A stretch of DNA of 64,000 bases from Bacteroidota bacterium. GTDB lineage: Bacteria > Bacteroidota > Ignavibacteria > Tepidaquicellales > Tepidaquicellaceae. The position numbers and the translations under genes are program-made. Below the pieces are notes generated by a model that saw only the letters and a program-made list of their open reading frames with translations, did not search any database and had not been told where the DNA came from. Every line of letters begins with the position of its first letter. The stretch's first letter is position 1. Positions 39,539 to 62,268 of this stretch are shown here, in pieces. The DNA lies in NCBI GenBank assembly GCA_018266845.1, contig JAFDZO010000002.1, positions 1-64,000 on the forward strand, given 5' to 3'.

Positions 39539-39615
39539 TTTACTTAAAATAAAAAACGCTTACATCTTTCTTGAACCTGAAAAAATAAGAAAAATATAAG
39601 CGTTGAATCAAATGT

Positions 39616-39697
39616 TATTCCTACGCCGGTACTAACCGGATCAGGTTCGTGGGTGTAATCTCAGCCGTTATCTTAGGAATAAAATAAGCGGCACCCC
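39616..39697 (-). promoter_or_regulatory. TPP riboswitch (THI element)
   Basis: On the minus strand the sequence contains the conserved THI-box parts in order: GGGGTGCC, then GGCTGAGATTACACCC, GAACCTGATCCGGTTAGTACC and GGCGTAGGAATA. The core CTGAGA and ACCTGATC bulges are intact. It lies between the cupin gene and the TonB receptor, about 78 bases before the receptor ATG, and should switch the receptor off when thiamine diphosphate is plentiful. Confidence 0.93.
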
Positions 39698-39724
39698 AAA
39701 ACAAAAAAAATTATTTATAAAGAA

Positions 39725-44933: not shown

Positions 44934-45488
44934 TATGAAAGAAGTATGGCTTTGATAAGTTTAGCCCTGATGGGCTTCATTGAGTTCTTTTGAACCCCCA
45001 CCCTAAAGGGTGGGGTTACTTTCATTTCATCTTATAATGTGGAATTATTTTTTCTTCCCCTAAAGGGTGGTTAGGATTTTATGAATAATAAAATTGAGTT
45101 AAGATTTTTTTCCATTCCAAAGCAGCAGTTTGGAAAGGATAATTTTGAAAAGTTTTAAAGAAGAGTATAATGAATTTATGAAAGAAGTATGGCTTTGATA
45201 AGTTTAGCCCTGAAGGGCTTCATTGAGTTTTTTTGTAACCCCACCCTAAAGGGTGGGGTTACTGTTTCGCCGTCAAACGGAGTTTGACTTTATATTTCCG
45301 TCCCAAACGGGGTTTGGGACGGAGAACTAAAAACGACTTTTCGCGCAATCTCTAAAGGGTGGGGTTACTTTCATTTCATCTTATAATGTGGAATTATTTT
45401 TCTTTCCCTAAAGGGTGGGGTTACTGCTATATGAGCCGTCAAACGGAGTTTAGCTTTACATGTATTTCCCAAGCCGGAGCTTGGGAAA
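44934..45488. repeat. Intergenic repeat block of duplicated segments and hairpins
   Basis: Segments 44934-45020 and 45178-45263 are near-identical: ATGAAAGAAGTATGGC, a GCCC-TGAT/TGAA-GGGC hairpin, then CCCCACCC-TAAA-GGGTGGGG. The sequence TTACTTTCATTTCATCTTAT occurs at both about 45016 and 45364, with CTAAAGGGTGG repeated after each. Further hairpins are GTCAAAC/GTTTGAC (45272-45288), CCGTCCCAAAC/GTTTGGGACGG (45298-45322), TTCCAAA/TTTGGAA (45115-45135) and TTTCCCAAGC/GCTTGGGAAA (45465-45488). No gene is seen in the 880-bp spacer 44638-45517; its first ~290 bp are featureless AT-rich sequence. Confidence 0.75.
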
Positions 45489-46915: not shown

Positions 46916-47052
46916 AAATTCTGCCTTTCGTTATTATTGCCTAAATTTAAAAATGAGTTTAAAAAAATGTAAGTCGAATTAAAAATCATAAAAAAGGGGA
47001 GAAGATTCATTAAAAGTAGATGAGGTAGTATTGTAAATTGTGTAAGCAAACA

Positions 47053-47836
47053 AATTCCGGCAATCATTTATGGAGACGCAAAGTATTGCGTCTCTACGTT
47101 TTGTTAATGCCTTAAACTTCTTCCCAATTTTTCTTTAAAAACTAATTCCGGCAATCATTTATAGAGACGCAAAGTATTGCGTCTCTACGTTTTGCTGATG
47201 CCTTAACCTTCTTTCCTGTTTTTCTTTTAAAACAAATTCCGGCAGTCGTTTGTAGAGCGGGAAGTATTGCGTCTCTACGTTTTGTTGATGTCTTAACCTT
47301 CTTTCCTGTTTTTCTTTAAAAACAAATTCCGGCAATCATTTGTAGAGACGCAAAGTATTGTGTCTCTACGTTTTGTTAATGCCTTAAACTTCTTCCCAAT
47401 TTTTCTTTAAAAACTAATTCCGGCAATCATTTATAGAGACGCAAAGTATTGCGTCTCTACGTTTTGCTGATGCCTTAACCTTCTTTCCTGTTTTTCTTTT
47501 AAAACAAATTCCGGCAGTCGTTTGTAGAGGGGGAAGTATTGCGTCTCTACGTTTTGCTGATGCCTTAAACTTCTTCCCAATTTTTCTTTAAAAACTAATT
47601 CCGGCAATCATTTATAGAGACGCAAAGTATTGCGTCTCTACGTTTTGCTGATGCCTTAACCTTCTTTCCTGTTTTTCTTTAAAAACAAATTCCGGCAGTC
47701 GTTTGTAGAGACGCAAAGTATTGTGTCTCTTCGTTTTGCTGATGCCTTAAACTTCTTTCCTGTTTTTCTTTTAAAGCCAATTCCGGCAGTCATTTATGGA
47801 GACGCAAAGTATTGCGTCTCTACGATTTGCAAATGC
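47053..47836. repeat. Nine-copy ~91-bp tandem repeat with internal hairpin
   Basis: The start AATTCCGGCA recurs at 47053, 47144, 47235, 47325, 47416, 47507, 47597, 47688 and 47779, giving a period of 90-91 bp; the ninth unit is truncated. Each unit contains AGAGACGC-AAAGTATT-GCGTCTCT, a hairpin, and then a T/C-rich linker of two types (TTCTTCCCAATTTTT or TTCTTTCCTGTTTTT). In units 3 and 6 the left arm is altered and the hairpin lost. No ORF or CRISPR-type unique spacers are visible. Confidence 0.92.
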
Positions 47837-48179: not shown

Positions 48180-51100
48180 ATGAATTTACATAAGAATCTT
48201 ATAAAATTTCTTCTCAGAAAATTATTAATCTTCTCCCTGATAGTAATTTTCATCGCATTATTTTTTAACATTTCTTTCTCCCAGACGCTAAATGATTACA
48301 AAGCCATTGCTTCAGGAAATTGGGGAACTGCGGCAAACTGGCAGAGATACAACGGGTCTTCGTGGGTAGCAGCGGGAACTTCCCCTTCCAATACATCTGA
48401 GACTGTAACAATTTCTTTTGGAACAACAATTACTTTGGATGTTAATCTCTCTCTTGACCAGCTTGTGATTAACGGCACATTGTCTTTAAATGCCGGGGAC
48501 TCTCTAAACATTGTTAACGGCAGCGGCACAGACCTCACTCTTACGGGAATAATTAACGGAGCGGGAAATATTTTTGTAAACAGCGGAGCTTTGGTTGACA
48601 TGCAGAGCGGAACTCTGACAGGAGCAGGTATAATGACTGTAAGCTCCGGCGGCACATTCAGTATTTCCAACTCGACTGTTACTATAGACAGAGTGTTAAA
48701 CAATAACGGAACAGTGAACTGGAATTCGGGCACTATCAGCGGGTCTGGAACGTTCAACAACAATAATATTTTTAATAACCAGACTGTCTTTGGAAGCTCA
48801 TTCAATAATACTTTTAACAACTACTCAACCTTTACAAAAAATTCTAACAATCAGAATATTTTTTTCGGTGTTTTCAATAATACGGGAACTGTAAATATTC
48901 AGCAGGGAAATATTACGCTGGGAATTCAATCAGGTACACACTCAATAGGAGGAGCGTTTAACGTTTCTTCAGGAGCGATTTTACAGCTGGGGCAGAATTC
49001 GTTTACAAATTTTAATGTCAGCGCTTCTGTTGCGGGAGCGGGAACAATAGTGTGTTACTCGACTGCGGCAGTAAATTTTTTAAGCTCGTGCATATACAAT
49101 GTAACAGGAACAACTACTGCGCAATTAGGCACTATGAATTTCAACGCAGGAATGACACTTACCAATGCGGGGAATATTTCTCCGGCAGGCGGAACAATTG
49201 TTTTTCCTGCGGGCTTGACAGTAAACGGTTATGGTTCATCTTTAAACATTACTGCCGGAGGAACGTTTAGCGCAAATTGCGGAAAGACTTTCAGCTTTCA
49301 AAAAGTGTTTGTGCTCGGCTACATTAACGGGTCGGATAGCATTATTGTAACTGATTCCTTAAGCCTTTCCTCCGGTTCACTTACCGGAACCGGCGCGATT
49401 ACTCTGAACTCAGGAGGAGTTGCTGCAATTTTTAATAACGGCTGCACGTTTGATAAATCTTTCTTCAATAACGGAACAGTAAACTGGACTGCATCAAGCA
49501 TTTTCGGTTCGGGCGTTGTTTACAATAATTCTGTTATTAACATTTCAGGAACTGCTTTAACGTGCTATCCGCAAATCATTAATCAAAATACAATAAATAA
49601 ATCTTCCAATACGGCAAGCGTATTTCCGGGCGGGTTTACGAACGGCTCTTCCGCAGTAATAAATATAACTGCCGGTTCGATTATGTCATCGGCGAACACA
49701 AACACTTATTCAATTGCAGGGACGGTTAATATAGCATCCGGCACATATCTTCAGTTGGGAAATTCTTCTACGGCGACTTATAATGTATCGGGAACTATTG
49801 CAGGCGCGGGAAGCTTTTACTGCCACACCGCAAACGTGAATCTTAATTCGGGATGTAATTATAACATCACCGGTACTACAGGAACGTATTCGGGAAATAT
49901 GAATTTTAACTCCGTAGTAACTTTGACTAATATAGGGACTATTACCTCCGTAAACGGAACGCTGAATTTGCAGCCCGGGCTATTCGTGCCTGCATATGGA
50001 ACTTCACTCTCGGCTACGGGAGGAGCGGTAATAAATTTTAATACAGGGCAGAAGTTTCAATTCGCCTCTATTAATTTGAACGGCACAATTGCAGGCAGCG
50101 ATACTATCGTACTCTCGGGAAATATGACATTTTCGGGAGCGACACTTTCCGGTTCGGGACCATTTAATATGCTGAGCGGTTCCGTGATGGATATAGTGAA
50201 TAATGCCGTTACAGTAAATAAAACGATTAACAACAGCGGAACTATAAACTGGATGCAGACGGGTATTAACGGTTCGGGAGTTATCAACAACAATAATGTT
50301 TTTAATATTTCGACTAATGCTAATTACGGGTGCTATACTTTGGTGAATAACAATTCGGTGATAAATAAGGGGACAAATTCTTCGCCGGTGCTTTTAGGCG
50401 GATGCAATAATTCGGGAACAGTAAATGTTACTTCAGGCAGTCTGATTATAACTCCCACAACGGGAACGTTCACAAGCAGCGGCACATTTAATGTAAGCGC
50501 ATCATGCGGATTAACGATGGGGCAGGTTTCGGGCACTGCATCGCATAATGTTAACGGAACGGTTGCAGGCGCGGGTTCAGTAACGTTAAGCGCGCAGACT
50601 GTTACTTTCGGCGCGGCTTCGGTTTACAATGTTTCGGGAAGCACCATTGCAAGTTTAGGTACCGTGAATTTGAATTCTGCCATGACCTTAACCAACATGG
50701 GAAGCCTGACAGTTTCGGGAGCAACAGTGAACTTTCCGGCAGGGCTTACCATAGGAGCAATCGGCAGCACTTTAACATTTTCATCGGGCACGATTAACTT
50801 TAATACGGGAAGAAGCAAAACGTTTAATCAAATTGACTTAGGCGGCACGTTTGCAGGAACTGATACCGTGTTTGTAAATACCACTCTCAATTGGAATGCG
50901 AATGGCTTTAACAATACGGGAGTTTTGAAGTCAGGCGGTACAGCTATAATTAACAACAATACAGTAAACGTAAGCGGCACATTCATAAATAACGGAACTG
51001 TGAACTGGACGATTTTACAAATATCAGGCGCAGGCAGTTTTTACAATAATAACATTTTTAATATCAATACTACATCGGCTTATACCTTATCTCCAAATCT

Positions 51101-52766
51101 CATTAACAACGGGACGATAAATAAAAACACGGCGAACATAAATGCTTTTGCAGGAACGTTTACCAACAATGGATTTTTAAATATCAACTCAGGCGGTATC
51201 AGCGCAGGCAACGGAACGAACTTGAATCCTGCATCTATCACGCTGTCTAACAATACTACCTTTGCAGTTAACAACGGCACATTTGTTACAACGGGTTTAA
51301 TGACTATCCCTCCAAACAGCTTTATAAACGGGAATGGCGTTTTCACTTACAATGCAGCTAACTTAGTAAACGACGGGACGATTTCTGTATCAACATTTCA
51401 GTTTGATTCTGTTACAAATATTTCAGGCAGCGGGGCGCTGAACGTAGTGAATTGTAATTTTCTCAACGGGTGTGTTTGTACGCTTACTTCCAACCATCAG
51501 TTTAAAAATATTAACATTAACAGCGGAGGAAGTTTTAATCTTAACGGGCTAAAGGCAAGCTTTAACGGCACGGGAACTACTATTATAACTAACGGCACTT
51601 TCAATACAAACAACAGCACAATAGAATACAACGCTACAAGCCAGCAGACAATATCTACTGCAAACATTTCTTATAAAAATCTTTTGATAAATAATACAGC
51701 AGGGTGCATACTGACTAATCTTTTGAATGTAAATGACACATTAAATGTACAAACAGGATTTTTAAATCTTAATCAGAATAATATCGTGCTCAGCAGCGTT
51801 GGCTTCCTGCGGGAAAATCCCGGCTGCACAGTGAGAGGGGTGAACGGAACAATTTCTACCACGCGCAATCTGGACTCATTAAGCGCAGTTGATGTGGCAG
51901 GGCTTGGAGCAGCTATTACTACAAGTAAAGTTTTAGGCGCTGCTACAATCAGCAGGGGACACGGCACATATACAATTAACGGAAGCTCAAGCGTTTCGCG
52001 ATACTATAATATTTCAACGGCTAATAATACTAATCTTAGTGCAACGCTGAGATTTCACTATGACAATTCGGAGCTTAACGGCTTGAACGAAAATCTCACC
52101 GCGCTTTTCAGGTCAACCAATGCGGGCGCTAACTGGTTTATTGCAGGAGGAACGAAAGATACCGCTAATAATAATATTACATTGCAGGGAGTAAACTCGT
52201 TCTCGTATTGGACAGTGGGGAGCAATCCTCTTGCTGTATCAATTAACTTTACGGCGATTATAGACGGCTTGTACAATACCGGCACGGGTATGCTAAATAA
52301 AAAGGACACAGTTACGGCTTACTTGCGAAACTCGTTCGCTCCCTATTCAATAATTGATTCGGCAAAATTTTTAATAGACTCGGTTACATTTTCCGGTTTG
52401 GCGTATTTTAATAATACTCCTTCGGGCGCTTATTATTATTCGCTGAAGTATAAGAATTCGATAGAAACATGGAGCAAGGCGGGGGGAGAAACTTACACTG
52501 CCGGAAGCTCAATGTCTTACGATTTTACTTCTGCACAATCCCAATCATACGGAAACAGCACTGTACTTAAAAATGGAAAGTACTGTATGGTCAGCGGTGA
52601 TATTAATCAGGACGGATTTGTAAACGGAAATGATTTCACTGCCTTCTCGCAGCAGTTCGGGCAGACAGGAGTTTTAACCGCTGACCTGAACGGTGATAAC
52701 GTAGTGAACGGAAATGATTTCACAACATTTTCAGCGAGCTTCGGAAAACAAAGCTCGCATCCGTAA
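48180..52766 (+). CDS. Giant secreted repeat protein (beta-helix-like) with dockerin-like C terminus
   Basis: A 1528-aa exported protein. An N-terminal signal/anchor (LLRKLLIFSLIVIFIALFF) ends near FSQ. Most of the protein is Asn/Gly/Ser/Thr-rich short beta-strands, with four super-repeats whose marker (N-N-x-G-T-V/I-N-W, as in NNNGTVNWNSGTI) is encoded at 48714, 49479, 50244 and 51000, i.e. 255, 255 and 252 residues apart. Such sequence suggests a right-handed beta-helix surface protein. The last ~140 residues contain a beta-sandwich-like module and, at 1472-1528, two dockerin-like loops (DINQDGFVNGNDF and DLNGDNVVNGNDF). It has no T9SS domain. The stop is 1 bp from the convergent neighbour's stop. 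Confidence 0.88.
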   Translation: MNLHKNLIKFLLRKLLIFSLIVIFIALFFNISFSQTLNDYKAIASGNWGTAANWQRYNGSSWVAAGTSPSNTSETVTISFGTTITLDVNLSLDQLVINGTLSLNAGDSLNIVNGSGTDLTLTGIINGAGNIFVNSGALVDMQSGTLTGAGIMTVSSGGTFSISNSTVTIDRVLNNNGTVNWNSGTISGSGTFNNNNIFNNQTVFGSSFNNTFNNYSTFTKNSNNQNIFFGVFNNTGTVNIQQGNITLGIQSGTHSIGGAFNVSSGAILQLGQNSFTNFNVSASVAGAGTIVCYSTAAVNFLSSCIYNVTGTTTAQLGTMNFNAGMTLTNAGNISPAGGTIVFPAGLTVNGYGSSLNITAGGTFSANCGKTFSFQKVFVLGYINGSDSIIVTDSLSLSSGSLTGTGAITLNSGGVAAIFNNGCTFDKSFFNNGTVNWTASSIFGSGVVYNNSVINISGTALTCYPQIINQNTINKSSNTASVFPGGFTNGSSAVINITAGSIMSSANTNTYSIAGTVNIASGTYLQLGNSSTATYNVSGTIAGAGSFYCHTANVNLNSGCNYNITGTTGTYSGNMNFNSVVTLTNIGTITSVNGTLNLQPGLFVPAYGTSLSATGGAVINFNTGQKFQFASINLNGTIAGSDTIVLSGNMTFSGATLSGSGPFNMLSGSVMDIVNNAVTVNKTINNSGTINWMQTGINGSGVINNNNVFNISTNANYGCYTLVNNNSVINKGTNSSPVLLGGCNNSGTVNVTSGSLIITPTTGTFTSSGTFNVSASCGLTMGQVSGTASHNVNGTVAGAGSVTLSAQTVTFGAASVYNVSGSTIASLGTVNLNSAMTLTNMGSLTVSGATVNFPAGLTIGAIGSTLTFSSGTINFNTGRSKTFNQIDLGGTFAGTDTVFVNTTLNWNANGFNNTGVLKSGGTAIINNNTVNVSGTFINNGTVNWTILQISGAGSFYNNNIFNINTTSAYTLSPNLINNGTINKNTANINAFAGTFTNNGFLNINSGGISAGNGTNLNPASITLSNNTTFAVNNGTFVTTGLMTIPPNSFINGNGVFTYNAANLVNDGTISVSTFQFDSVTNISGSGALNVVNCNFLNGCVCTLTSNHQFKNININSGGSFNLNGLKASFNGTGTTIITNGTFNTNNSTIEYNATSQQTISTANISYKNLLINNTAGCILTNLLNVNDTLNVQTGFLNLNQNNIVLSSVGFLRENPGCTVRGVNGTISTTRNLDSLSAVDVAGLGAAITTSKVLGAATISRGHGTYTINGSSSVSRYYNISTANNTNLSATLRFHYDNSELNGLNENLTALFRSTNAGANWFIAGGTKDTANNNITLQGVNSFSYWTVGSNPLAVSINFTAIIDGLYNTGTGMLNKKDTVTAYLRNSFAPYSIIDSAKFLIDSVTFSGLAYFNNTPSGAYYYSLKYKNSIETWSKAGGETYTAGSSMSYDFTSAQSQSYGNSTVLKNGKYCMVSGDINQDGFVNGNDFTAFSQQFGQTGVLTADLNGDNVVNGNDFTTFSASFGKQSSHP

Positions 52767-56535: not shown

Positions 56536-59307
56536 ATGAAAAAAATTATCTTCTCAACATCATTGTTTTTAATTTCCCTTTTGAGCTTGAACTCAAAAGC
56601 AGCGCTCCCAAACCCCATAATTTTTGTTACCCAAGTGCCGATGGCAGGCGGGCATAATGCAATCGGCGACCCCTTTGCAAACCACCTCGGCGATATTCAA
56701 AATGTCAGAAGAGGCGGAGATTTATATATTCTCTACCCTGACGGAACTTTAAAAAACTTAACCCAGCTTTGCGGATTCGGTTCTACCGGAGCAAACGGAT
56801 TTCAAGACCAGAATTCTATTGCCGTTAGAGAGCCAAGTGTTTCATGGGACGGCACAAAAGCGCTTTTCAGTATGGTAAAAGGCGCGCCAACATCGCTTCA
56901 CGATAATACTCATTACTACTGGCAGATTTATGAAGTTACAAATTTAGGGCAAAACCAGTCTCCATCAATCAGAAAAATAAATAACCAGCCGCTTAATTAC
57001 AATAATGTCAGCCCGATTTATGGCACTAACGGAAGAATAATTTTTGCAACAGATATGCCGCGAGGAGGAGCGCCTTACCTGTATCCTCAATATGACGAGT
57101 ATCACGGTCAGCCGACTAATACAGGGCTGTGGAGTCTTGATGAAATTTCGGGAGATTTGATTCAGCTTGACCACTCTCCTTCGGGCGATTTTTCTCCTTT
57201 CATAGACAGCTACGGGAGAGTGATTTTTTCAAGATGGGACCACTTGAGGCGCGATGGCAATGTTGATGATGAATTTGCTCATCCCGGCGTTAACAAGATT
57301 TATCCTTTTAACTTTGCAGACGAAACACAAAATGCGCTAAGAACACAGATAGATTATACTCCGGGAAATCCGGGAATAGAATCTTTCCCTGAACCGCAGG
57401 GAAACAGAACTGATTTATTGCCGGGTAATCTGAACGGGCAGGAGTTCAATATTTTCTTTCCGTGGAACATGAATGAGAACGGAACTTCAATGGAGACAAT
57501 CAATCACATTGGAAGGCATGAGATGTCGCCGTTTTTTACTAAAAATTTTACCGATGACCCGAACCTTTTAAGCATAAACAGGTTTGGCACCGGCGGAACT
57601 TTTGTAAGCAATACTTTGCAGCCGCGGGAAGACCCGAGTTCTCAGGGAACTTACTTCGCGATTGATGCGGCAACTTCGTTAAACTATCACGGAGCAGGAT
57701 ATATTTTCAAAATGTCGAATGCAGGATTAGGAGCCGGGGGGACTCCTCTGAATGCGGATAATACAACCCTTTCCTTTGTTACAAGAACGACGTTTACATT
57801 CGGCAGATATAAAAACGTTCTCCCGCTTGTGAACGGAACTTTAGTAGCAGCGCACTCCGATACAACATCAATTGAAGCAGAGATTGGTACGGTATCTGCC
57901 ACACGGGATACTATTTATTCAAAATGTAAATACTCTTTCAGGCTGAAAACGTTAATTGCCGAGACTGCGCCTTATTACAGAGCGAATACTCTATTAACGT
58001 CATCCATTCCTACAAAGAATATTAAATTTTACAATCCTGATACGCTTGTAGTAATGAATGCTGTGCGCCTATGGGAACTTGACCCTTGCGAAGTAGTATC
58101 GAGAACTGTGCCGACAACAAATCCTATCAATCCGGGAAGTTTACCGGCGCAGGAAACAACTGCAATTACAAATGCAGGATTAACCGTAACACAGGTTAAA
58201 AATTATTTAACACAAAATAATCTTTCATTAATAGTAAGCAGAAACGTTACGACACGCGACGGGCACGATAAGCAGCAGCCTTTTAACTTAAGAGTAGTTG
58301 ATACTAACGGAACATATCAGAATAATTATGCGCAGACAATCGGCGCAAGCGGAAAGGTTTACGATATTTCACACTTGCAGATATTTCAGGCAGATCAGGT
58401 GCGGGGATATATGGGACCGAATAATGATATTAATAATCCTCTGCCGGGAAGAAGACCTATTCCGCTTCCATTGCACGACCCTTCGGCAAAAAATCCTAAC
58501 ATTAACCCTAACGAACCTAAAGGCAGTGTAAGAATTTTTTCAGACGGCTCTCTTGCAGCATTTGTTCCGTCAAGAAGAGCATTAAGCTGGCAGATGACGG
58601 ATACATCTAAGACTGCAATTGTGAGGGAGAGGTTCTGGCTTACTTTCCAGCCGGGAGAAATTGTTACGTGCAACTCATGCCATGGATTAAATACCGGCGA
58701 CCAGCTAAATCATCCAAAGCCGACTAATGTTCCGGCAGCCTTGACAAGTTTATTAAATACTATAAAGCCCTCGATTGTTTTTGCAAATCAGGTGAGCTTA
58801 AAAGTAATATTTTCGATTCAGGGTTTATGGAATGGAACAAATCTTTCCAGCGATACTGTGAGAGTTTATTTAAGAAGTTCTTCAGCGCCATATAATAAAA
58901 TAGATTCGGTTGTAAAAGTTGTAAACTCGCAGGGAAATGATTCAGTATCATTCGCAAATGCTCCGGCAGGCACTTACTATGTTTCTATAAAGCATAGAAA
59001 CTCTCTTGAGACGTGGAGCGCGGCAACGCAATCGCTGCCTATAGGGAGCTATTCTGTAATTGATTTGACAACAGGACAAAATTCTGCTTATGGTAATAAT
59101 TTAATTTTCTCAAACGGTCAATGGTGCATGTACTCCGGCGATATTGACGGCGACGGAATTATTAACGGCAACGATTTTACTGTGTTCAGCTCGCAGTTTG
59201 CGCAGACAGGTTATCTGAACTCGGATTTGAATAATGACGGAATTGTGAACGGCAACGATTTTACAGTTTTCAGTACAGGCTTTGGACATCAAAGCCTTCA
59301 CCCATAG
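56536..59307 (+). CDS. Secreted HzsA-related propeller/c-type heme protein with dockerin-like C terminus
   Basis: A 923-aa exported protein. The signal peptide is KKIIFSTSLFLISLLSLNSKAA. Residues ~25-600 resemble the N-terminal propeller of hydrazine synthase alpha (HzsA)-related proteins (GGDLYILYPDGTLKNLTQL, REPSVSWDGTKALFSM, FSRWDHLRRDGNVDDEF). A single heme c attachment site, CNSCHG, lies near residue 712. The last ~150 residues are the same C-terminal module as in the 1528-aa and 823-aa proteins, ending with loops DIDGDGIINGNDF and DLNNDGIVNGNDF. It is not evidence for anammox chemistry: HzsA-like proteins are widespread with unknown function. The ATG is followed by a clean signal sequence, which supports the start. 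Confidence 0.85.
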   Translation: MKKIIFSTSLFLISLLSLNSKAALPNPIIFVTQVPMAGGHNAIGDPFANHLGDIQNVRRGGDLYILYPDGTLKNLTQLCGFGSTGANGFQDQNSIAVREPSVSWDGTKALFSMVKGAPTSLHDNTHYYWQIYEVTNLGQNQSPSIRKINNQPLNYNNVSPIYGTNGRIIFATDMPRGGAPYLYPQYDEYHGQPTNTGLWSLDEISGDLIQLDHSPSGDFSPFIDSYGRVIFSRWDHLRRDGNVDDEFAHPGVNKIYPFNFADETQNALRTQIDYTPGNPGIESFPEPQGNRTDLLPGNLNGQEFNIFFPWNMNENGTSMETINHIGRHEMSPFFTKNFTDDPNLLSINRFGTGGTFVSNTLQPREDPSSQGTYFAIDAATSLNYHGAGYIFKMSNAGLGAGGTPLNADNTTLSFVTRTTFTFGRYKNVLPLVNGTLVAAHSDTTSIEAEIGTVSATRDTIYSKCKYSFRLKTLIAETAPYYRANTLLTSSIPTKNIKFYNPDTLVVMNAVRLWELDPCEVVSRTVPTTNPINPGSLPAQETTAITNAGLTVTQVKNYLTQNNLSLIVSRNVTTRDGHDKQQPFNLRVVDTNGTYQNNYAQTIGASGKVYDISHLQIFQADQVRGYMGPNNDINNPLPGRRPIPLPLHDPSAKNPNINPNEPKGSVRIFSDGSLAAFVPSRRALSWQMTDTSKTAIVRERFWLTFQPGEIVTCNSCHGLNTGDQLNHPKPTNVPAALTSLLNTIKPSIVFANQVSLKVIFSIQGLWNGTNLSSDTVRVYLRSSSAPYNKIDSVVKVVNSQGNDSVSFANAPAGTYYVSIKHRNSLETWSAATQSLPIGSYSVIDLTTGQNSAYGNNLIFSNGQWCMYSGDIDGDGIINGNDFTVFSSQFAQTGYLNSDLNNDGIVNGNDFTVFSTGFGHQSLHP

Positions 59308-59488
59308 ATTTTGGGGATAACAGTGGTATCAGTAAGAATTAAATAAGTAAACTCCTCCCTTGAGGGAGGTGTCAAGCGAAAGTGAGACGGTGGGTGTTTT
59401 CTAGAACACCCCTCCCGACCTAAAGGTCGTACTCCCCTCAAGGGGAGAGCAGTTGCCTAAGGTAAATAGATTTTGGGGATAACAGTGG
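59304..59488. mobile_element. Hairpin-rich element between 23-bp direct repeats
   Basis: ATAGATTTTGGGGATAACAG.. (23 bp) occurs exactly at 59304-59326 and 59466-59488. The first copy contains the TAG stop of the 923-aa gene. The 139 bp between contain four hairpins (CCTCCC/GGGAGG, GGGTGTT/AACACCC, GACC/GGTC, TCCCC/GGGGA), resembling the element at 2465-2550. It looks like a non-coding MITE-like insertion or a repeat-flanked duplication. The rest of the spacer to 59797 contains no gene that can be supported. Confidence 0.65.
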
Positions 59489-59796
59489 CGTGCTAAAGAC
59501 CCGGTCTTTACTTTATTTTTATCGGGGATTTAGTTAAAGATTCGGGTTTAGCTGCCATTGATTTTGTAACAGGAAACAAAACACCCGATAATAAAAAAAC
59601 TTTGTGAATAGCAGCGCTCCCGATACAAAACATTTTAGTAAAAACTTTAACTCAATGTTAGTGTATTGGGCAGTATTAAATGAAGCGGATTTCGGATATT
59701 TGCTGCCGGAAAAGAACAGGCAAAAAAATAATTCCGGCGCAAAAAAGAAAAAAACGAAGAAAAAAATAAAGCTAAAATCTGAAAAGAAAATTAAAA

Positions 59797-62268
59797 ATGA
59801 AAAATAAATACACACAAAGCTTTCTTTTCTCCCTAAGTTTGCTTTTAGCCTTTAGCAATATTTGTTTTTCCCAATTGATGTGGAATCAGGCGGGGAAGTT
59901 TAACGGCTCCGGCTCTTATACTTATCTTGCAATTCCCAATTCAACAGACCTCAATAAAATTGAGGAATGTATGTATGAAATGTGGGTAAACATGGCATCA
60001 TACCCTTCCGGAGGAACATATTACCAATTTTTAAATAAAAATCAGGATTATCAGCTTGCCTATGATGGTTCATTATCAAAAGTTTATGTGAGAAATAACA
60101 GCGGAAACGGGAATGATTTATTCGGACCAAATTTAAGTCTAAACAGATGGTATCATCTGGCAGTTATTATCCGCGATACACATATAGTCGGGCTGTCAGA
60201 TTCAAAAGTAAGAGAACTATATGTTGACGGACTCATCTATTCAAAGGATGTTCAGCAATATGCTGACAGCACTTTAGGAACTTCTACTGACTCTCTAAAA
60301 ATCGGCAGCTATGGCGCGCCGAATTTTTTGGGAACATTCAATGGAAACTTAGATGATGTGAGGTTGTGGCTTGGAAAATTTTACCCTGCCGATGTTGCAT
60401 CTAACTACCGTTCTACTTTATCGGGTTGGGGAAGTACAAATAATTATTATTACAAATGCATTCTTTCCATCACATTTCAGGATGTGGATAATTCAGGGAG
60501 TCCTTTTTTTATTAGCGACCGTTCCAGGATTGGGCGTACTGTTAAAAACAATAATGTTACTGCTTATGATATGAGCCTTCGTCCTTCGGTTACAACATTT
60601 CCGAATCAAAGCATTCATTTAAACGGAACTACTGATTATCTGGCAGCCGCAGACCATAGCAGTTTAAGTCCCTCTTCATTTGTAACGTTAGAGGCATGGG
60701 TTTACCCGGAAAAAACATATACCGGAGCTTTTTCCGATGCAGGTACAATTCTCTGTAAAGGTTTATCAAGCGCAAATTACAGGCTTTATCTTGGCGGGGG
60801 AAACGAAGTATTTGCCTCTATAAACGGAAATTTAAGTTTCCCTTCATCTTCCAGCGCCATTGCTCCGGTTAATCAATGGACGCATGTTGCTTTTACTTAT
60901 GACGGCACCAATGGTAACTATAACTATTATGTAAATGGTGTCGCTGCGGGTTCGGGAACAAACAATCAGGGAAACATTACGAACAGTGTTGATTCTTTTT
61001 ATGTTGGGCAATTCAACGGCAGTTTTTCCTTTAAAGGATATATTGATGAGCTTAGAGTTGCGGGCTATATTAAAACTCAGCAGCAGATTTATGATTTTAT
61101 TTACAAAGCAATGGATACCGGAGACAGACCTTCCGCATTTGATTTAGTATGCTATAATTTTGACGGGTATCTTGAGAACAACAACGGATTATCTCCAAGA
61201 TTGTATTTCAGAAACGGTGCTGATTTTTCTTCGCATTATATTCCGAGTACGAAAAATTTTCCTATAAGCCCGCTGCTTAAAGCAGATAATTTTAGTTTTC
61301 CTACGGCATGGTATATTTCGAGCACGAATTTCAGAATTCCTGCATCTGGAACAAGCGGTTCATCGCAATATGATACAATTAATATCCCTTACTGCAAAGG
61401 TGTGCTTGATATTAATGTGTTTCTTGCTTTGAATCATTCCTATGAAAAAGACTTAACTGCGTGGCTTATTTCTCCCGCCGGTGATTCACTGGAGTTAGTG
61501 AAAGGAAACTCAATGGAGCGCGGACAGTTTATTACAATTTTTAATGACCAGGCGGATTCTTCAATTATCAATGATAGATATACTTCGTTTCTTCCTAACA
61601 TAAAACCATTTACAAGTATAAGCTCGGTGATGAGCGGAGTAAATACAAGAGGGGATTGGAAACTTCGTGTGAGTGATGCTCTTAATGGAGATACTGGTAT
61701 GGTATATGCGTGGGGGCTACAGTTTAACAATATGGTTGCAAAACCAAACCTGATGACACTGACATCTACAGCAAATCAAAACGGCTTCTGGAACGGTTCA
61801 AGCCAGCCTTTAGATACTGTGAGAATGTATTTGCGCAATACGTCTGCTCCTTATACAAAAGTTGATTCAGCTATCGGATACATAAACCAGTTTGGTTTCT
61901 GCACCACTTATCTGGCAAACGCCTTAAACGGAAGTTACTACATAGAATACCGGCACCGAAACTCTCTTGCCGTATGGAGCAGCCTTCCCAAGTCATTTTC
62001 TCAGGGCGGCTCGACAAGTTTTTCTATTCTTTCGGGACCAAGCACTGTTTATGGAGGTGAATTGATTTCGGTAAACGGCAGATGGTGTATGTACAGCGGT
62101 GATATTAATCAGGACGATGTAGTTAACGGGAATGACTTTACGATTTTCTCGCAGCAATTCGGGCAGAGCGGGTATCTTGCTTCTGACTTAAACGGCGATG
62201 GAGCCGTAAACGGAAACGACTTTACTGTCTTTAGCACGGGATTCGGGCGGCAGACTTTGCATCCGTAA
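59797..62268 (+). CDS. Secreted LamG/P-domain protein with dockerin-like C terminus
   Basis: An 823-aa exported protein. After the signal peptide (FLFSLSLLLAFSNICFSQ) two LamG/concanavalin-like domains follow (NLDDVRLWLGKF near 190 and FTYDGTNGNYNYYVNGV near 375). Next is a proprotein convertase P/Homo-B-type domain at about 540-650 (DLTAWLISPAGDSLELVKGN, GDWKLRVSDALNGDTG, YAWGLQF). The last ~155 residues form the shared module, ending DINQDDVVNGNDF and DLNGDGAVNGNDF. LamG and P domains bind glycans or stabilise proteases; there is no protease domain here. It belongs to the trio with the 1528- and 923-aa proteins. Confidence 0.85.
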   Translation: MKNKYTQSFLFSLSLLLAFSNICFSQLMWNQAGKFNGSGSYTYLAIPNSTDLNKIEECMYEMWVNMASYPSGGTYYQFLNKNQDYQLAYDGSLSKVYVRNNSGNGNDLFGPNLSLNRWYHLAVIIRDTHIVGLSDSKVRELYVDGLIYSKDVQQYADSTLGTSTDSLKIGSYGAPNFLGTFNGNLDDVRLWLGKFYPADVASNYRSTLSGWGSTNNYYYKCILSITFQDVDNSGSPFFISDRSRIGRTVKNNNVTAYDMSLRPSVTTFPNQSIHLNGTTDYLAAADHSSLSPSSFVTLEAWVYPEKTYTGAFSDAGTILCKGLSSANYRLYLGGGNEVFASINGNLSFPSSSSAIAPVNQWTHVAFTYDGTNGNYNYYVNGVAAGSGTNNQGNITNSVDSFYVGQFNGSFSFKGYIDELRVAGYIKTQQQIYDFIYKAMDTGDRPSAFDLVCYNFDGYLENNNGLSPRLYFRNGADFSSHYIPSTKNFPISPLLKADNFSFPTAWYISSTNFRIPASGTSGSSQYDTINIPYCKGVLDINVFLALNHSYEKDLTAWLISPAGDSLELVKGNSMERGQFITIFNDQADSSIINDRYTSFLPNIKPFTSISSVMSGVNTRGDWKLRVSDALNGDTGMVYAWGLQFNNMVAKPNLMTLTSTANQNGFWNGSSQPLDTVRMYLRNTSAPYTKVDSAIGYINQFGFCTTYLANALNGSYYIEYRHRNSLAVWSSLPKSFSQGGSTSFSILSGPSTVYGGELISVNGRWCMYSGDINQDDVVNGNDFTIFSQQFGQSGYLASDLNGDGAVNGNDFTVFSTGFGRQTLHP

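Follow-up and report, generated by a model that had tools for sequence, protein, structure and literature searches.

The sequence analyzed here, called the window throughout, comprises positions 1-64,000 of contig JAFDZO010000002.1 (GCA_018266845.1), a 46-contig assembly that is referred to as the own genome or G000. The gene of a secreted-type protein of 923 aa ends in this window at a hairpin-rich insert, which lies between two copies of a 23-bp sequence. The features of the locus are listed below, with matches to the covariance model R1 where they apply.

56536-59307, + strand: gene of the 923-aa secreted-type protein, with a match to the HZS_alpha middle domain and dockerin-like repeats at the C-terminus; its stop codon is the site of the target
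59304-59326, + strand: left copy of the 23-bp duplicated target, containing the TAG at 59305-59307
59327-59465, + strand: 139-bp insert relative to the empty site of the same-genus comparison genome G001 (G001 site read by eye)
59327-59350, + strand: 24-nt part of the insert to the left of the family core, without a further occurrence in either G000 or G001 when up to three mismatches are allowed
59351-59448, + strand: family core of 98 bp, a tail-to-tail A-B dimer (R1 match at 59346-59450)
59351-59398, + strand: monomer A, with hairpins at 59354-59369 and 59371-59388 and the tail GGGTGTT
59392-59411, strand not assigned: central hairpin GGGTGTT/AACACCC uniting both tails
59405-59448, - strand: monomer B, inverted, with the tail AACACCC and hairpins at 59416-59429 (covarying) and 59432-59447
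59449-59465, + strand: 17-nt part of the insert to the right of the core; searched together with the preceding 5 nt, it likewise had no further occurrence in either genome when up to three mismatches were allowed
59466-59488, + strand: right copy of the 23-bp duplicated target, an exact match to the left copy

The direct repeat is exact, as the earlier note on this DNA had described it, with a start-to-start distance of 162 and 139 bp in between. Its left copy begins one base 5' of the TAG that ends the 923-aa frame. Among 1000 dinucleotide shuffles of 59304-59796, exact repeats reached 15 nt at most (versus 23 observed), and exact repeats of at least 23 nt were found in 10 of 255 overlapping 493-nt tiles of the window, two of these 10 being the repeat at 59304-59488 itself. 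At up to three mismatches the 23-mer was found nowhere else in the own genome. Similar dockerin-like C-termini are shared by three large frames of the window (48180-52766, 56536-59307, and 59797-62268), two of which score over the cut-off for dockerin type I. Other features of the window include a tandem array at 47048-47830 (8.6 copies of a 91-bp unit, every copy containing a GAGACGCAAAGTATTGCGTCTC-type hairpin), long near-repeats at 44940-45430 with CCTAAAGGGTGGGGTTAC hairpins and REP-like TTTGGGACGGAG pieces, and a TPP riboswitch on the - strand at 39601-39708 (65.3 bits).

The fold of the 139 bp as RNA beat all 200 shuffles (z -5.0), and 59345-59453 folded as DNA reached z -4.0. Terminal inverted repeats, as expected of a MITE, are present in the core, the ends of which pair (59352-59366 with 59435-59449, 87%) and show covarying terminal pairs (column 7/109). 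Instead of the four hairpins described, the core can be drawn as five local hairpins or, alternatively, as a long terminal stem enclosing smaller ones. The element had also been equated with the whole 139 bp; the repeated family core takes up only 98 bp, and no donor for the 24-nt or the 17-nt part at its sides was found in G000 or G001 at up to three mismatches. The proposed resemblance to 2465-2550 proved slight, with nothing beyond one short hairpin. The best pairwise similarity between the two consisted of 18 nt of a GTGTT-loop-AACAC hairpin, which was equalled by 5 of 500 shuffles on one strand and by 81 of 500 on the other. Within the window, R1 at E up to 10 matched only the element itself, on both strands, and left 2465-2550 unmatched. 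The latter element thus appears not to belong to the same family as the core at 59351-59448.

Searching the own genome with the region as query returned 59 rows at E up to 10, a figure that includes chance rows and pieces. With the core as query at E of 1e-5 or lower, 30 rows were retrieved from G000 and nine from G001 (pieces of one copy are counted apart), and none from the remaining 27 genomes of the bacterial family. Most copies lie between ORFs of at least 80 aa, according to a crude ORF scan of 28 dimers. Monomers A and B have the same layout, in which a GC-rich hairpin is accompanied by another one, variable in sequence, and by the tail GGGTGTT; in the A-B form the tails are joined in a central hairpin. 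At least 22 tail-to-tail A-B dimers were counted in G000 and six in G001, including damaged (L013, L025) and insert-bearing (L013, L019, L023) copies and excluding further degenerate ones. Head-to-head B-A dimers, identified by eye, numbered five in G000 (L021, L024, L026, L029, and one in L126) and one in G001 (L058). Lone B monomers (L020 and one in L014) and an A-B-A form (L030) were also present, as was a tandem array on contig 42 of G000 (3.5 copies, 249 bp) in which this monomer is mixed with REPs like those beside RAYTs.

Covariation was analyzed in an alignment of 25 dimers from which the three insert-bearing ones were excluded. Paired cells made up 93.4% of the total versus at most 59.7% for slid structures, the covariation score was 0.149 versus at most 0.059, and 41 cells had changed on both sides versus 12.9 in shuffles and at most 17 in slid structures. 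This signal derived chiefly from the second hairpin of B (all four pairs) and from the outermost pairs, the remaining stems being nearly invariant. The hairpin core is a member of a mobile palindrome family with BIME/REPIN-like anatomy. Some copies are carried within longer units. One of these, 223 bp in length, has inverted ends of 17 bp and encloses a B-A dimer; it occurs in two copies, 97% alike, at unrelated places (L129, about 2156-2376, and L126, 760-982). For 10 of the 28 A-B dimers, the score against an outer-repeat consensus hand-typed from such copies exceeded that of every one of 300 shuffles on one or both sides. Outer inverted ends are not claimed for the window copy (right p 0.03, left p 0.12, uncorrected). 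Other palindromes (e.g., CCCGCATCAAGTGCGGG) are nested within element hairpins at L013, L019, L023, L027, L030, and L125.

The empty site sought by the earlier note exists in G001 (locus L038), where the 23-mer occurs once and the element is absent. The suggestion of an insertion with target duplication was borne out, as this single, elementless site stands behind the stop codon of the orthologue of the 923-aa protein (87% identical). The stop codon is kept in place in the window and the gene is uncut by the insertion. A scan of relatives' contigs yielded one distant protein match and no corresponding site. The comparison of the two genomes shows the 139 bp to be a real insertion with a 23-bp target duplication. 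The single G001 23-mer differs from the window copies by three mismatches and a 1-nt gap. Because the window copies are mutually identical, yet differ from the G001 copy, the insertion with its duplication is younger than the split between G000 and G001; an insertion before the split would have left both copies drifted apart about as far as from G001. The window insertion is thus fairly recent.

Other copies could be compared in the same way. Nineteen of the 20 G000 copies queried and five of the eight G001 copies queried were placed in the other genome, which with the window site gave 25 compared sites, 22 matching on both flanks and three (L006, L015, and L054) on one. By motif, none of these 25 sites carried the element in both genomes, and the best R1 result over the 25 partner loci (E 0.097) was a weak match to another hairpin repeat. 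Since no element was shared at the compared sites, the turnover of family copies is fast. At most mapped sites the intergenic DNA was too divergent between G000 and G001 for placing junctions. On a wider scale, five of 245 genomes of the class, including both of this genus, gave covariance model matches at E up to 1e-4 (strict filters, rough E-values). Distant relatives in the class share the layout, and two of them form tandem arrays whose units take in flanking sequence (4.5 x 210 bp at L102, 1060-2004, and 3.1 x 104 bp at L097, 1302-1624). At L108 in G098, a distant relative of the element is enclosed by an exact 20-bp repeat (1449-1468 and 1673-1692), a palindrome that looks like a terminator.

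Long flanking direct repeats were detected at two of 30 places, namely at the window copy (23 bp) and at L002 (39 bp, one mismatch). The remaining places scored 6 to 13, shuffles reaching 9 to 13; the score of 13 at L014 is due to a second monomer, and L004 and L017 exceeded their 20 shuffles by one. None of 1056 mispaired flanks reached the values of the window or L002 repeats. The L002 repeat is a terminator that is single at the matching G001 site. As that G001 locus has a related terminator some 1.8 kb away, the 39-bp repeat may not stem from the insertion and is weaker evidence than the window copy. Decayed long duplications were not apparent at 24 A-B copies, whose matched flanks were no more alike than mispaired ones (p 0.30). 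This value excludes L014, where another monomer adjoins the element, as well as L052 and all B-A copies; with L014, L052, and the five B-A copies included, p was 0.009. Two G001 loci have further repeats of their own: at L052 an 18-bp exact repeat, one copy of which abuts the element, looks like a piece of another REP, and at L058, which has an empty site in G000, an AT-rich inexact repeat lies about the sides of the element.

The absence of direct repeats at other copies had been put forward as grounds for rejecting the insertion. Such copies account for 28 of the 30 places, which means that the 23-bp repeat is not a family trait and leaves the insertion itself unaffected. The doubt that 23 bp would suit a MITE was well placed, as there is no target duplication of fixed length (23 and 39 bp at two of the 30 places) and other family copies are without such repeats. 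Given that long repeats are exceptional and that decayed ones were not detected elsewhere, 23 bp is no fixed signature of the family.

Among known systems, BIMEs and REP dimers (GTAG and CGTC families, PMC3733652; RAYT-associated REPs, PMC2817692) resemble this family in being intergenic palindromes with head-to-head and tail-to-tail inverted dimers, lone monomers, mosaic tandem arrays, and insertion inside longer palindromes. The passages of PMC3733652 concerned describe the latter for GTAG-15 dimers of A. variabilis. Several features of BIMEs and REPs were found here, namely palindromes spread genome-wide between genes, both dimer orientations, and tandem or mosaic arrays. A further feature of BIMEs is a GTAG or CGTC tag at one stem end; the tail read in the present monomer is GGGTGTT. 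The monomer differs from theirs in having two hairpins instead of one, and the family differs in that no RAYT was found with it alongside and in the 23-bp target duplication at the window copy. REPINs, as portrayed in excerpts of PMC3116915, likewise have an inverted doublet as the mobile unit, whole-doublet excision, and tandem clusters with flanking sequence; the present family differs from them in having no demonstrated cognate RAYT, copies in dozens, and a long duplication at one copy. Palindromes are also the targets of IS1272, an element that takes the place of inverted repeats (PMC5678879); unlike the window element, it encodes its own transposase and makes no target duplication. A literature search (listings, passages, and one abstract) recognized no paper describing this hairpin family.

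Three RAYT genes of the own genome score over the curated cut-off, one just above it (80.1 vs 80), and a 97-aa IS200-like remnant brings the Y1 genes to four. The three RAYTs are flanked by other REPs, and R1 had no match within 1.5 kb of any of the four Y1 genes, upstream or downstream, so that no cognate RAYT flanked by the same palindrome was found. The element behaves like a BIME/REPIN and shares its anatomy; for want of a cognate RAYT, it is not placed in a RAYT-served REPIN family. Use of a RAYT in trans is possible, given that the contig 42 array mixes this monomer with RAYT-type REPs.

The repeated family, the dimer anatomy, the covariation of base pairs, the empty site in G001, the lack of shared copies at the compared sites, and the target duplication are all observed. 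The explanation that we consider probable is that a recent copy of a non-autonomous BIME/REPIN-like palindrome was inserted behind the stop codon and that 23 bp of host sequence were copied twice by repair. The element would have arrived as a single strand folded into hairpins, as has been proposed for REPs and RAYTs, and the site would have been closed by strand switching at the replication fork or by filling-in of a staggered break. It is this closure step that would have copied the 23 bp twice, leaving them as the repair scar of one insertion, and the extra 24 and 17 nt may represent donor flank or filler. Every step of this mechanism, closure by strand switch or staggered break included, is inferred. 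On this view the repair event, and no transposase, would determine how long the duplication is, in keeping with the absence of long repeats at most copies.

It is improbable, in our estimate, that the element is instead a MITE mobilized by a DDE transposase whose target duplications are long and variable in length, like those of IS1549 and IS1634, for which the portion of PMC2266710 consulted gives direct repeats of 8 to 514 bp. The two unlike long repeats in the own genome (23 and 39 bp) would suit such an enzyme, as would the B-A core and the 10 of 28 A-B dimers within longer, MITE-looking units with inverted ends. However, the IS elements bear a transposase and the present element none, most of its copies (28 of 30 places) are without long repeats, and beyond the core, the 139-bp insert lacks inverted ends of its own. 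DDE_Tnp_1, the sole DDE family covered, was not matched in the own genome, the same search being positive in nine of 14 controls.

About equally unlikely is a history of two events, in which the 23 bp or a spacer segment was duplicated first and the hairpin came later, or in which an older insert that lay between the repeats was precisely lost from G001. According to PMC2884548, 10 to 18% of the variable segments in three species have repeats at their flanks, which mostly measure less than 30 bp and are often attributed to slippage, and the 24 and 17 nt of other sequence that separate the core from the repeats agree with separate events. Such a history nevertheless requires more than one event, and the loss of an insert older than the split would fit window copies that are identical but unlike the G001 copy only if these had been homogenized. 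An att-like integration, in which the site recombined with a circle that contained the same 23 bp, would leave one exact copy per edge as observed; it is very unlikely, as the 23-mer has no other occurrence in the genome at up to three mismatches and the long repeat of L002 is unrelated to it. The earlier note had also considered a retron-like origin, and such a reverse-transcribed copy, for which the highly structured insert would speak, is the least credible of all: the reverse transcriptase gene expected of a retron or msDNA was not found (RVT_1 had no match in the own genome and was positive in three of 14 control genomes), and the inverted-dimer and head-to-head forms match REP/BIME repeats.

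As a repeat, the element is of a common kind; what is unusual is how long the copied stretch is. According to the section of PMC8266576 drawn upon, the mechanism by which REPs and BIMEs spread is still to be elucidated. If the palindrome was inserted and its site closed by repair as we propose, a further and doubtful step would be that replicative strand-switch insertion yields host-derived duplications of 20 to 40 bp, which would seed unequal exchange or slippage and thereby BIME/REPIN tandem arrays of element plus flank. The window site (1.14 copies of a 162-bp unit) would then be an intermediate of the first step. Being a single site with one weaker parallel, at L002, the window insertion amounts to a clue and cannot yet be generalized. 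As a recent event whose empty site is clean and whose 23-bp duplication is exact, it provides a footprint that any proposed mechanism has to explain; an ordinary single-strand insertion would not produce such a duplication.
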